Source: an uncultured Eubacteriales bacterium
GTDB lineage: Bacteria > Bacillota > Clostridia > Oscillospirales > Acutalibacteraceae
Assembly (NCBI GenBank): GCA_900317025.1
Contig: ONFG01000016.1
Location: 1-34,432 of the forward strand
Length of the DNA: 34,432 nt
Direction of reading: 5' to 3'
Shown: piece after piece, positions 14,981-34,432 of the stretch
Numbering within the stretch: position 1 is the stretch's first letter
How the letters are laid out: every line of letters starts with the position of its first letter
Program-made: the position numbers and the translations under genes
Notes under the pieces: model-generated
The model's database searches: none
The model's input: the letters and a program-made list of their open reading frames with translations, nothing else
What the model was told of the DNA's origin: nothing

Positions 14981-15020
14981 AAAATCACTCAAAACAAATT
15001 CAAAGGAACGTTTATCATAA

Positions 15021-15183
15021 TTAAGATAGCTCTCCGCATTAGCGACAGTAGGGCGGATCTTATCCGAACTACCAAGATGCACTTTCGCCTCGCACACCTT
15101 TCGGCAGATACGCCTTTCACGATTTTCGTAGCCTGCGAAGCCGTGGGAAACCGCTACTGATAGCACCTGCGCCTCTATCATAA
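15021..15183 (-). promoter_or_regulatory. Lysine riboswitch aptamer (L box)
   Basis: On the minus strand a 163-base segment is closed by P1 (TTATGATAG at 15183-15175 with CTATCTTAA at 15029-15021, one mismatch). Conserved L-box blocks are in order: GATAGAGGCGC, the AGTA turn, GAAAGGCG, GCCGAAAGG, CTACTGTC and GGAGAGCTATC. Together with position before dapA this identifies a lysine-sensing aptamer. Lysine binding should stabilise P1 and permit the terminator at 14954-14977. Confidence 0.92.
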
Positions 15184-15196
15184 TTGCATTAAATTC

Positions 15197-16367: not shown

Positions 16368-16382
16368 CTGAAAATCAAATAT

Positions 16383-16462
16383 GATCCCTACGGCGGCATT
16401 ATCCGCATCAGGTCTATGGGTCGGGGTTCATAACCCCCTCTCAGCCTGTTTACAAGCTCCCC
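16383..16462 (-). promoter_or_regulatory. TPP riboswitch (THI box)
   Basis: The minus strand reads GGGGAGC, then GGCTGAGAGGG, ACCC, GACCTGATGCGGATAATGCC and GCCGTAGGGATCA in the correct order and spacing of the thiamine pyrophosphate aptamer. It precedes thiT and a terminator, so thiamine pyrophosphate should switch thiT off. No strong promoter is seen in the 33 bp between it and the yebC stop, so it may be reached by read-through from yebC. Confidence 0.93.
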
Positions 16463-16495
16463 TTTTTTTATTGTGTTTAACGACACGCCGCAAGA

Positions 16496-17239
16496 TTATT
16501 CTTCGTCCGGCTCGTCAAATTCCCAGTTGTGCCAGACGTTCTGAACGTCGTCGTTGTCCTCAAGTAAGTCGAGCATCTTCTGCATCTTCTCTACCTGATC
16601 GGGGTCTTCAAGCTTCGTGTAGTTCGACGGTACCATCTCGACCTCGGCCTCGATGAACTTGTAGCCGAGAGCCGTAAGAGCCTCGTTTACCGCACCAAAA
16701 TCCTCAGGCTCGGTGTAGATCTCGAAAACGTCGTCCTCAGCCTTGAAGTCTGCGGCGCCGCTCTCGAGCGCGTCTTCCATTACCTTCTCCTCGTCGAGAT
16801 CCTCGGCTTCGGTGATGAGTACGCCCTTCTTCTCGAACATGAACGCTACGCAGCCCTGCGTGCCGAGGTTGCCGCCGAATTTATCGAATGCGTGGCGAAC
16901 GTCGCCCGCAGTTCTGTTGCGGTTGTCGGTCAGCGCCTCAACGATAACGGCGATGCCGCCCGGACCGTAGCCCTCGTATGTGATCGCCTCGTACTTGGAA
17001 GCGTCGTTGCCGCTTGCCGCCTTTTTGATGATGCGCTCGATGTTGTCGTTAGGCACATTGTTTGCCTTCGCCTTTGCAATGGTATCTCTCAGGCGTGAGT
17101 TGACGTTCGGGTCTGCGCTGCCGCCCTCTTTGATGGCAACGATCAGCTCTCTGCCGATTTTCGTAAAGACCTTGGCTCTTGCGCCGTCGTTTTTAGCCTT
17201 CTTGTTTTTGATGGTGCTCCATTTATTGTGTCCGGACAC
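16496..17239 (-). CDS. yebC: YebC/PmpR/TACO1-family protein
   Basis: The family has been described both as DNA-binding regulators and, more recently, as ribosome-associated factors that relieve stalling; which applies here is not known. The 247-residue product begins (M)[20 protein letters not shown], the family hallmark, followed by [14 protein letters not shown], the [21 protein letters not shown] motif and an acidic C-terminal half. I place the start at GTG 17239 since homologues start at MSGHNKW and AAAGGA is 9 bases upstream; ATG codons 4-6 codons earlier overlap that site. It has its own promoter. Family is secure. Confidence 0.95.
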
Positions 17240-17295
17240 ATTGATCATTCCTTTCAAAAAAATGCGGCAGATGGAACTACTGCACTAACTTAAAA

Positions 17296-17458: not shown

Positions 17459-17523
17459 GAAAAAAACTTTAATTAATATTCTTAAAAGAAAGTTGTGTTT
17501 TTGGGCTGAAAAATATATCCCCC

Positions 17524-17555
17524 TTGACATGATCGGGTTTATGGTGTGTTATAAT
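17524..17555 (+). promoter_or_regulatory. Plus-strand promoter of small-RNA candidate
   Basis: Consensus TTGACA (17524-17529) and TATAAT (17550-17555) on the plus strand. The spacer is 20 bp, longer than the ideal 17, which lowers certainty or implies an activator. No protein gene follows on this strand; a structured segment and a terminator do. Confidence 0.5.
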
Positions 17556-17561
17556 AAGCAG

Positions 17562-17684
17562 AAAGAGAGCGCCGCTCATCAGCGTGCGCAGCACGCGCAT
17601 TTCAAATTAAAGCATTTAATTTGAAACTAGTATTAGTATAAGAAACACCGATACTTTGGGAGTGGCGGTGTTTCTTGTTTTTTT
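17562..17684 (+). ncRNA. Candidate structured small RNA, three hairpins, unknown family
   Basis: About 123 bases between a plus-strand promoter and a terminator in a gene-free gap. Hairpin 1: GCGTGC-GCA-GCACGC (17582-17596). Hairpin 2: 12-bp perfect arms TTTCAAATTAAA / TTTAATTTGAAA again closing a GCA triloop (17600-17626). Hairpin 3: 11-bp arms AAGAAACACCG (17640-17650) and CGGTGTTTCTT (17666-17676) then seven T (17678-17684), an intrinsic terminator. A linker CTAGTATTAGTAT separates 2 and 3. I do not recognise it as a named RNA family. It could be a trans-acting RNA or the antisense half of a type I toxin pair, but I see no convincing toxin frame. Confidence 0.55.
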
Positions 17685-17695
17685 ACCTTTTACCA

Positions 17696-17740
17696 AAAAC
17701 GGACGATCCGGAAAGCTGAAATGCTCCGATCGTCCGTTTT
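17696..17740 (-). terminator. Terminator after pnp, usable in both directions
   Basis: Perfect 13-bp arms AAAACGGACGATC (17696-17708) and GATCGTCCGTTTT (17728-17740). T-rich ends are present on both strands, so it ends pnp on the minus strand and backs up the plus-strand small-RNA terminator. Confidence 0.85.
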
Positions 17741-17760: not shown

Positions 17761-19968
17761 TTATCTGCGGAAATTGCGGCGGTCGCCTCTTCTGTCGTTT
17801 CTCGGGCGGCGCTGCTGATCGCTGATGTCATTCTCGGGAACAAGACCCTCTACCTCGATGAGTGCGTCTCTTCTGGAGAGGTTGAGTCTGCCCTTATCGT
17901 CGATCTCGAGCACCTTAACGATGATCGTGTCGCCCTCGGAGACTACGTCCGTTACCTGCTCGGTGCGCTTAACGTCAAGGCGGGAGATGTGGCAAAGGCC
18001 CTCCATGCCCGGTGCAATCTCAACGAATGCGCCGAAGTCCATGATGCGTGTAACTCTGCCATAGAATACCGCGCCGATCTCCGGCCCGTTTGCGATAAGC
18101 TCGATCGCTGCGATAGCTGCTTTGCACTTATCAGTGTCCATACCGGAAACAAATACGTTGCCGATGTCGCCGTTCTCCTCAATGTCGACCTTGACCTCGA
18201 ACTGAGCCTGGATCTCCTTGATGACCTTGCCGCTCTTGCCGATGACCTCGCTGATCTTCTCGGACGGGATCGTCGTTGTGAACATCTTCGGTGCGTAAGG
18301 CGAAAGCTCCTTTCTCGGCTCGGGAATAGCCTTGAGGATAACCTCGTCAATGATATAGTTGCGCGCCTTGTGGGTCTTGTAGAGAGCTTCCTTTACCATG
18401 TCGGGCGTAAGGCCGCTGATCTTGAGGTCCATCTGGATTGCGGTGATGCCGTCCTTTGTGCCGGCTACCTTGAAGTCCATGTCGCCGAAGAAGTCTTCAA
18501 GCCCTTGGATATCGACCATTGTCATCCAGCGCTCACCCTCGGTGATAAGACCGCAGGAGATGCCTGCGACGGGAGCCTTGATCGGAACGCCTGCGTCCAT
18601 GAGCGAAAGTGTGGAGCCGCAGACGGAGCCTTGCGACGTAGAGCCGTTGGACGATACTACCTCGGAAACGAGGCGGATAGCGTACGGGAACTCTTCGACC
18701 GACGGGATGACCGGGAGAAGCGCTCTCTCTGCAAGCGCGCCGTGACCGATCTCACGTCTGCCCGGACCTCTCGACGGCTTTGTCTCGCCGACGGAGTAGC
18801 TCGGGAAGTTGTAGTGGTGTATATATCTCTTTTCCTCTTCGTCGTCGATGCCGTCGAGGAGCTGCTTATCGGAAACGGGGCCGAGCGTTGTTACGGTGAG
18901 AACCTGAGTCTGACCTCTTGTGAACAGACCTGAGCCGTGAACTCTCGGGAGAAGACCTACCTCGGAAGCGAGCGGACGGATATCGTCCATGCCTCTGCCG
19001 TCGACGCGCTTCTGCTCGTCGAGCAGCCAGCGGCGAACTATGAACTTCTGAGTCTTGTAAAGGCACTCGTCGATCTTAGCCTCCATGTCGGGGTAGATCT
19101 CGTCAAACTTCTCGTGAACCGCCTCGTAGATGGGCTTTAAGCGCTCGTCTCTTACCGTCTTGTCGTCGGTATCGAGAGCCGCCTTGACGTCCTCCTCGCA
19201 GAAGGACTTGATGGCCTCAAACATATCGTGATCCGGCTCATTGGAGGGGTACTCAAACTTCGGCTTGCCGATCTCTGCCTGAATCCCCTTGATGAACTCG
19301 ATGATCTTCTGGTTAGCCTCATGACCTGCCATGATGCCGTTGTACATAACGTCGTCGGTAACGCAGTCTGCGCCTGCCTCGATCATTGCGATGCGGCTGT
19401 CGGTCGAAGCGACGGTAACGGCCATCTTGCTTGCCGCTCTCTGCTCCTTGTTCGGGTTGATGACGTACTCGCCGTCAACGTAGCCTACCGATACGCTCGA
19501 AACAGGACCGTTCCACGGAACGTCGGAGATGGAGATCGCGATCGACGTTGCGACCATCGCCGTGATCTCGGGCGAGCAGTCGGGGTCTACCGACATAACG
19601 GTAGCGACGATCGAGCAGTCGTTTCTCATGTCCTTCGGGAAGAGCGGGCGGATCGGGCGGTCGATAACTCTCGACGTAAGGATCGCCTTCTCAGAGGGGC
19701 GACCCTCCCTTTTAAGGTAAGAGCCGGGGATCTTGCCTACGGCGTAGAGCTTCTCCTCGTAGTCAACGGAAAGCGGGAAAAAGTCGATGCCGTCTCTCGG
19801 CTTCGCGGAAGCCGTAACGGCTGCCTGAACGACGGTGTCGCCGTAGCGAACGAGGCACGAGCCGTTGGCAAGCTGAGCCATCTTGCCCGTTTCAACAACG
19901 AGCGGGCGGCCTGCGAATTCGGTCTCAAAGACCTTGAATTTGTCAAATTTCATCATTGAATTTGCCAT
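17761..19968 (-). CDS. pnp: Polyribonucleotide nucleotidyltransferase (PNPase)
   Basis: PNPase is the trimeric 3'-5' phosphorolytic exoribonuclease of mRNA decay. The 735-residue product has the standard order: two RNase PH-like domains (about residues 10-225 and 320-550) around a helical linker, then a KH domain with EVIGKSGKVIKEIQAQF and an S1 domain with GRVTRIMDFGAFVEIAPGME. The core motifs GPGRREIGHGALAERAL and SNGSTSQGSVCGSTLSLMDAG are intact. The C-terminus is arginine-rich (RRPRNDRRGDRRNFRR). Start ATG 19968 follows AAGGAA. It is downstream of rpsO, as in most bacteria, separated by two RNA stem-loops that may serve autoregulation. Confidence 0.97.
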   Translation of the reverse strand: MANSMMKFDKFKVFETEFAGRPLVVETGKMAQLANGSCLVRYGDTVVQAAVTASAKPRDGIDFFPLSVDYEEKLYAVGKIPGSYLKREGRPSEKAILTSRVIDRPIRPLFPKDMRNDCSIVATVMSVDPDCSPEITAMVATSIAISISDVPWNGPVSSVSVGYVDGEYVINPNKEQRAASKMAVTVASTDSRIAMIEAGADCVTDDVMYNGIMAGHEANQKIIEFIKGIQAEIGKPKFEYPSNEPDHDMFEAIKSFCEEDVKAALDTDDKTVRDERLKPIYEAVHEKFDEIYPDMEAKIDECLYKTQKFIVRRWLLDEQKRVDGRGMDDIRPLASEVGLLPRVHGSGLFTRGQTQVLTVTTLGPVSDKQLLDGIDDEEEKRYIHHYNFPSYSVGETKPSRGPGRREIGHGALAERALLPVIPSVEEFPYAIRLVSEVVSSNGSTSQGSVCGSTLSLMDAGVPIKAPVAGISCGLITEGERWMTMVDIQGLEDFFGDMDFKVAGTKDGITAIQMDLKISGLTPDMVKEALYKTHKARNYIIDEVILKAIPEPRKELSPYAPKMFTTTIPSEKISEVIGKSGKVIKEIQAQFEVKVDIEENGDIGNVFVSGMDTDKCKAAIAAIELIANGPEIGAVFYGRVTRIMDFGAFVEIAPGMEGLCHISRLDVKRTEQVTDVVSEGDTIIVKVLEIDDKGRLNLSRRDALIEVEGLVPENDISDQQRRPRNDRRGDRRNFRR

Positions 19969-34315: not shown

Positions 34316-34339
34316 TGGTATAATGATAAGATTATACCA
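34316..34339. promoter_or_regulatory. Perfect palindrome containing a -10 box on each strand
   Basis: TGGTATAAT and ATTATACCA are perfect 9-bp inverted arms around GATAAG. Each arm holds TATAAT with a TGG extension, so a -10 is offered on both strands. No clear -35 is found at 17 bp on the plus strand (TGGATT). It may be a promoter with an operator, or part of the structured element that follows. Confidence 0.5.
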
Positions 34340-34432
34340 AACTCAATTAAAAAGCTTTAAAAGCTTTTTATAGCGCCGCAGGCGCGTTTGAGTTTGTATG
34401 AGACGGGATGACGCGCTTTGCGCGGCATCAGC
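34338..34432 (+). ncRNA. Second structured RNA-like element, cut by window edge
   Basis: Outer arms CAAACTCAA (34338-34346) and TTGAGTTTG (34388-34396) enclose two stems: AAAAAGCTTT/AAAGCTTTTT (34349-34369) and GCGCC-GCA-GGCGC (34373-34385). A third stem GATG-CGCGC-TTT-GCGCG-CATC follows (34407-34429). The three-way-junction form and the GCA triloop echo the 17562-17684 element. The 3' end is outside the window, so boundaries are unknown and transcription is unproven. Confidence 0.4.

Follow-up and report, generated by a model that had tools for sequence, protein, structure and literature searches.

Small type I toxin-antitoxin modules such as TxpA/RatA, BsrG/SR4 and SprG/SprF combine a hydrophobic peptide with an antisense RNA. 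In the par/Fst module, a short antitoxin RNA with an intrinsic terminator is transcribed convergently with the gene of a hydrophobic peptide of ~30 aa with a charged tail, encoded on the opposite strand (PMC7472228). The modules of Clostridioides difficile (CD2517.1-RCd8 and others) are reported as convergent and overlapping toxin and antitoxin RNAs, the toxins being 50-53 aa long in three modules and 34-59 aa overall (PMC6563280). Additionally, the Coxiella elements QMITE1 and QMITE2, small repeats with about 50 copies, are reported as a source of sRNAs (PMC5896051).

The locus considered here lies in a stretch of 34,432 nucleotides (contig ONFG01000016.1 of an uncultured Eubacteriales bacterium), the whole of which is called the window. 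With a probability of roughly three in four, we read it as what is left of a type I antitoxin RNA gene, an orphan that was partly destroyed and into which a MITE has inserted, a reading that comes from sequence comparison. The features involved are as follows.

17524..17555, plus strand: promoter, with TTGACA at 17524-17529, a 20-nt spacer and TATAAT at 17550-17555 (from the sequence and the relatives' promoter profile)
17556..17576, plus strand: putative residual 5' end of an antitoxin-like transcript; in the family alignment the hairpin GAGTACTGCAC..GCGGTTACTC is missing here
17577..17635, plus strand: 5'-truncated MITE-like element (consensus nt 95-153, 98.3% identity to the consensus), which carries both GCA-loop hairpins
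17582-17596, plus strand: hairpin 1, GCGTGC-GCA-GCACGC
17600-17626, plus strand: hairpin 2, a perfect 12-bp stem, TTTCAAATTAAA-GCA-TTTAATTTGAAA
17633-17635, plus strand: TTA directly after the MITE end TAGTA, taken to be the duplicated target site on the 3' side
17636..17684, plus strand: 3' linker and intrinsic terminator of the antitoxin-like RNA (from the covariance model R1)
17640-17676, plus strand: terminator stem of 11 bp, AAGAAACACCG...CGGTGTTTCTT, followed by G and seven T up to 17684
17697..17740, minus strand: separate hairpin 3' of the pnp-like gene, outside the unit; a similar hairpin adjoins pnp in the related genome G005 (L088)
17761-19968, minus strand: ORF that we take, from its translation, to be pnp-like
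16496-17257, minus strand: ORF that we take, on the same basis, to be yebC-like
34332..34432, plus strand: another copy of the MITE, comprising nt 1-101, 99% identical and cut by the contig end

The original prediction had described this gap as one small RNA of three tandem hairpins, with its own promoter and terminator and directed against the neighbouring genes. Its letters were read correctly: the promoter, both GCA-loop hairpins with the perfect 12-bp stem and the 11-bp terminator stem are all present, with the refinements that a G precedes the seven T and that the two promoter hexamers are 20 nt apart, a spacing that the prediction does not give. The orientation holds as well. Both adjoining ORFs are on the minus strand, so that plus-strand transcription would run against both, and the promoter and terminator resemble those of the relatives described below. 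The promoter could alternatively be read with TGTTAT as the -10 element at 17 nt, or with an extended -10 element, TGTTATAAT. It is not listed by a standard scan that accepts spacers of 16-18 nt, nor is the terminator listed by a standard scan that accepts loops of 3-8. Folding of a 123-nt stretch gave -43.4 kcal/mol against -26.3 +/- 3.1 kcal/mol for shuffled sequences, none of the 200 shuffles being as stable, and the first GCA hairpin is absent from both the minimum-energy and the centroid folds. The Rfam search proposed earlier, performed at gathering and E-value thresholds, gave no credible match for the window locus, the best sub-threshold model being GibS with 26.8 of 115 bits. The claim that the unit belongs to no named family is thus true of Rfam, but the unit does resemble an unnamed, recognisable family of type I antitoxin-like RNAs. 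In the same window, Rfam places a lysine riboswitch at 15019-15185 (minus strand), 5' of a presumably dapA-like gene, and a TPP riboswitch at 16368-16473 (minus strand), 5' of what we take to be a membrane-protein gene.

What did not survive is the unity of the three hairpins, since the first two of them come from a repeat that is scattered over the genome. In a search of the own genome with 17515-17700, at least 40 places including the window, these being the best 40 of 72 candidates, matched query positions ~63-121 (window 17577-17635), and a second DNA search for the element also gave at least 40 places. Both GCA triloops derive from this repeat, so their succession is no distinctive mark of an RNA gene. 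When the copies were aligned with their flanks, the repeat grew to ~153 bp, TTATACTAAACTCAATT...GTATGAGACGGG...GCGTGCGCAGCACGC...TTTCAAATTAAAGCATTTAATTTGAAATTAGTATTA, with ends TACTA..TAGTA as terminal inverted repeats. A covariance model of the element (R2, built from 13 sequences including the window fragment) matched the own genome 74 times at E 0.001, with at least one overlapping opposite-strand pair among these hits; the window fragment is one of the 74, with 64.1 bits. Elsewhere in the genus, R2 matched three times in G005, 12 times in G020 and not at all in the other 19 genomes; in a family sample searched at E 1e-4, with stricter filters and seven candidates scored per genome, it was found in two of 398 genomes (the own genome and G132). 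The exact pattern of the element occurred in one record, RUG322, in a scan of a contig collection from which records near the window may be missing; the RUG genomes are presumably of cow rumen origin. Five contigs of the own genome (C3, C46, C25, C10 and C23 of G000) terminate in or beside copies of the element; the assembly therefore seems to break at the repeat, and copies may be undercounted.

The positions and flanks of the copies are those of a small mobile element. None of 30 loci (29 distinct copies, L152 being the same as L157) lies within a chosen ORF of at least 110 aa, and 9 of the 25 copies for which both neighbours were called sit between converging genes. Of the 32 complete copies that were parsed, 26 carry the same triplet on both flanks (20 TTA, 4 TGA, 2 TAA), against a mean of 15.3 under permutation and with 0 of 10,000 permutations as high as 26; the left-end filter behind this count omits three G132 copies with equal triplets (L239-L241) and copies without a terminal AGTA, and one of the 32 rows (L070), which looks mis-parsed, was scored as a miss. 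Some IS5-like elements produce TNA duplications of this kind. An empty site for one copy was sought in G005, G016 and G002, where the flanks were apart or unmatched. The structure of the element also covaries. An alignment of 22 rows, drawn from four genomes and fitted to R2, has 91.8% of its cells paired, and both partners have changed in 15 of 35 pairs (mean of shuffles 11.0; 15 or more in 4 of 500). Counted by cells, both-sided changes number 89 against 31.1 in shuffles (0/500) and 0-7 in slid versions. The number of further pair types, 28, shows no excess over shuffles (460/500 as high). One row of this alignment (A4), L233, reads the reverse strand and was kept in. Related elements in G020 and G132 (L234, L236, L239-L241, L245, L247, L248, L250) have a similar hairpin order, other stem letters and TNA flanks. 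A multi-copy, short, intergenic repeat with inverted-repeat ends and a target duplication, it behaves like a MITE.

The remaining part of the locus has a different kinship. Among the 22 genus genomes, its terminator part (query ~118-169) was matched in G001, G002, G008, G011, G013, G017, G020 and G021, the best match, in G001, having E 3.8e-9 by plain BLAST, with weaker or shorter matches as well. Eleven relative sites were inspected; they are 78-85% identical over about 40-56 nt, and each match lies within a promoter-RNA-terminator unit. All share a layout in which TTGACA, 20 nt and a TATAAT-like element are followed by what is typically AAGAGTACTGCACAGTAAGCGGTTACTCC, then by a linker and finally by the AAGAAACACCG terminator, with an RNA of ~95 nt; at gathering score, Rfam reports tRNAs alone at these 11 loci. 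A covariance model (R1) was built from 12 relatives' RNAs, with the window left out. In the genus it matched in 18 of 22 genomes at E 1, a level at which noise is likely, and in 11 of 22, own genome included, at E 1e-5. In the family sample, at E 1e-5 and with stricter filters, 9 of 398 genomes and 5 of 135 genera had a match. Both-sided changes were observed in 15 of the 22 pairs of its helices (77 cells against 27.7 in shuffles, 0/500), the 5' helix being the weakest, with 84.2% of cells paired and one pair unpaired in 22 rows. For this alignment (A2), R1 served as the template for fitting and the structure was assigned once the rows had been viewed; three of the rows kept in it (L031, L190, L018) come from the opposite strand of the palindromic terminator. 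Building covariance models from homologues, as the original prediction had suggested, thus does reveal compensatory changes, in the antitoxin-like RNA (R1) and in the MITE (R2), but as two separate families.

At several relative sites, a short ORF, with a ribosome-binding site like GGGAGGTGATAAC ahead of it, converges on the RNA from the opposite strand; an example is MKMTDICILINTVIQVISFCAKVYKNRKQK. The count was made on 46 R1 loci, namely all 30 forward genus matches of at least 37.7 bits except the window, and the 16 family-sample matches from outside the genus. A convergent ORF with a ribosome-binding site, a hydrophobic core and a basic tail is present at 29 of them (under a rule of 24-45 aa, the ORFs found being of 27-36 aa), whereas in the controls the same rule passes 25 of 2300 mononucleotide shuffles and, among genomic stretches, 4 of 314; one of the 29 ORFs, L225, is unlike the others. 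No toxin was detected at the other 17 loci, two of which (L017 and L187:93) are shortened by contig ends, and this suggests that orphan units are not unusual. In G020 (C96; L079, L013), the candidate type I unit occurs three times, 382 bp apart, 3' of a tRNA gene, the third without a detected toxin ORF. A profile of 18 peptides gave 18 genus matches at E 1e-7 or better, 17 of them adjoining an R1 locus, an overlap that is largely by construction, as most profile rows came from R1 loci. The informative exception is a toxin-like peptide at G003:C117:4839-4919 (E 1.1e-11), where no R1 match is listed and which suggests a diverged or different antitoxin alongside.

None of the peptides tested reaches a curated Pfam or NCBIfam cutoff. 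Below the cutoffs, Pfam Hol_Tox scores 14.0 and 14.9 of 23.3 bits, NCBIfam PepG1 13.2-15.9 of 70 and, for one peptide, TisB 12.1 of 25 bits; scores just as high come from unrelated families, such as one of poxvirus membrane proteins (15.4 bits). The combination of an R1 RNA with a convergent peptide ORF is nevertheless the layout of a type I toxin-antitoxin module, and we regard it as a candidate system. By analogy with par/Fst, TxpA/RatA and SprG/SprF, the RNA in the relatives most likely silences the toxin mRNA that faces it, through pairing with the overlapping transcript. When the 5' parts of antitoxins were folded as duplexes with the ribosome-binding sites of toxins, the 12 cases gave mixed results, several being no better than shuffles, and such pairing of the RNA 5' part was not upheld as a general mechanism.

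In the window's own genome, the top R1 match is the locus under study (17587-17684, 51.5 bits, E 1.5e-7), followed by two matches at a single further place, with E 0.07 and 0.62. The match comes from the terminator half; the 5' half lands on MITE letters, where two of five stem pairs are non-standard. The R1 match is partly circular, given that the 12 sequences of the model were found via their likeness to the window's terminator. The promoter played no part in finding the relatives and is therefore an independent line of support. With a profile of the relatives' promoters (n = 12), position 17523 scores 26.3, compared to 11.3 for the next position on either strand of the window, and with both hexamers masked the site ranks 23rd of 68,798 positions. 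The window promoter, with GnTGTnnTATAAT, has the family promoter feature, yet it scores below the family range of 34.1-52.4, which was taken from the profile's own rows. The family's 5' hairpin, GAGTACTGC..GCGGTTACTCC, is missing, as neither CTCCC nor GGTTACTCC nor GCGGTT occurs in 17556-17690. No toxin ORF was found in the window (best peptide-profile score 5.4 bits) or in the own genome, where the best hit, 18.4 bits, lies inside a 483-aa frame and where an earlier search found none at E 1; this genome is 92.38% complete, and a toxin elsewhere could have been missed. As no toxin was found, the window does not hold a complete type I system, and it belongs to the antitoxin-like family through resemblance of its sequence, not through function.

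The 3' junction indicates how the two parts may have come together. After the MITE end TAGTA the window reads TTAGTATAAGAAACACCG, where the linker consensus of the family is TTTAGTGTTTTAAGAAACACCG, and past TAGTA and TTA it continues GTATAAGAAACACCG. A TTA of the antitoxin linker was therefore probably the target, with its 3' copy kept. The MITE would have entered the linker at this TTA, with the antitoxin 5' hairpin on one side of it and the terminator on the other. MITE nt 1-94 would then have been deleted, along with that hairpin, and the toxin gene lost, leaving a unit that now abuts the hairpin 3' of pnp. Both the antitoxin hairpin and MITE nt 1-94 are absent from the stretch 17556-17576. 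Within it, AGCGCCGC (17568-17575) is an 8-nt match to MITE nt 41-48 that 11 of 500 shuffles also reach, and it might be a scrap of the MITE. The unit was sought beside pnp in 21 relatives; pnp was found in 18 of them, with no unit in the 420 bases after it (42 bases only at L098), and was not found in the other three. In G005, G002 and G010, the 3' ends of pnp and yebC face each other with no such unit between them; in G016 the two genes are also arranged tail to tail, at a distance of about 900 bp. The window's yebC-like gene is turned round relative to pnp by comparison with G005, G002 and G010, which makes the gap holding the unit a rearrangement site.

Several other explanations have to be weighed against an interrupted antitoxin gene. 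The resemblance could be due to convergence, if a chance promoter and an ordinary terminator around a MITE fragment happened to look like an antitoxin RNA; the diagnostic 5' hairpin and the toxin are indeed missing, and the choice of relatives via the terminator makes R1's window match partly a product of construction. We nevertheless consider this unlikely, in view of the plain BLAST match of the terminator in G001, of a promoter that was not used in picking the relatives and leads the rest of the window by 15 units, of the 20-nt spacing common to the window and its relatives, and of the presence of TTGA(C/A/T) upstream of 44 of the 46 R1 loci (the other two are without a TTGA motif). The free-standing regulatory sRNA gene with three purpose-built hairpins that was first proposed is the least probable of the readings considered. 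Promoter, stable fold and terminator do follow each other in the right order, with no Rfam match, but two of its hairpins belong to a repeat and recur with it at dozens of further sites, and no second locus with all three was found in the 22 genus genomes searched.

A functional chimera, in which the antitoxin promoter and terminator drive a MITE-derived trans-acting RNA that pairs, for example, with MITE copies in untranslated regions, is improbable, more so than convergence. The promoter and terminator look intact, nine MITE copies are placed between converging genes, and MITE-derived sRNAs are reported from Coxiella (PMC5896051); however, no such chimera was found in any of the 21 genus relatives, and palindromic hairpins would be expected to pair with themselves first. 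Slighter still is the chance that the antitoxin gene has been re-used, its MITE hairpins serving as an RNA that pairs with, or competes for factors of, the ~70 intergenic copies; if that were true, the locus would be a young genome-wide regulator made from a toxin-antitoxin relic and a transposon. With the pairing module and its target both missing, the likeliest state of the interrupted antitoxin gene is that of a relic with a promoter and a terminator that still appear sound. If transcribed, it would give an RNA of ~125 nt that ends in the old terminator and is probably without its original target.

The locus itself is ordinary in kind, and its main yield is the toxin-antitoxin family behind it, a candidate type I family of these Clostridia that lies outside Rfam, is arranged in tandem in several genomes and is sometimes represented by the RNA without a detected toxin. 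A second yield is the family of the MITE, whose structure covaries and whose copies have 3-bp TNA flanks. In a literature search by title and start of abstract, no paper was found on this RNA family or on a MITE within a type I antitoxin gene. The chimera would illustrate a route to sRNA-like loci, namely a transposon landing in a decaying antitoxin gene, and it is a caution that a promoter, hairpins and a terminator alone do not define a new RNA family.

Compared to TxpA/RatA, BsrG/SR4 and SprG/SprF, the relatives described here are alike in combining a hydrophobic peptide with an antisense RNA, the Hol_Tox and PepG1 scores being below cutoff, and differ in that their RNA belongs to no Rfam family at gathering score. 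With par/Fst (RNA II), they share a convergent RNA and a hydrophobic peptide (PMC7472228), whereas the 18 peptides are without proline and hence without a PXXXG motif. Moreover, par/Fst has DRa/DRb complementarity, while the two RNAs of the relatives share, as judged by eye, a similar 5' sequence in the same sense; the window copy has neither the toxin nor the 5' module. The C. difficile modules, compared by their description in PMC6563280, have the same convergent layout and likewise belong to Clostridia, while the candidate toxins of the relatives here are of 27-36 aa. In Coxiella, the sRNA arises from the element itself (PMC5896051), whereas in the window the promoter and terminator would come from the gene that the element interrupted.
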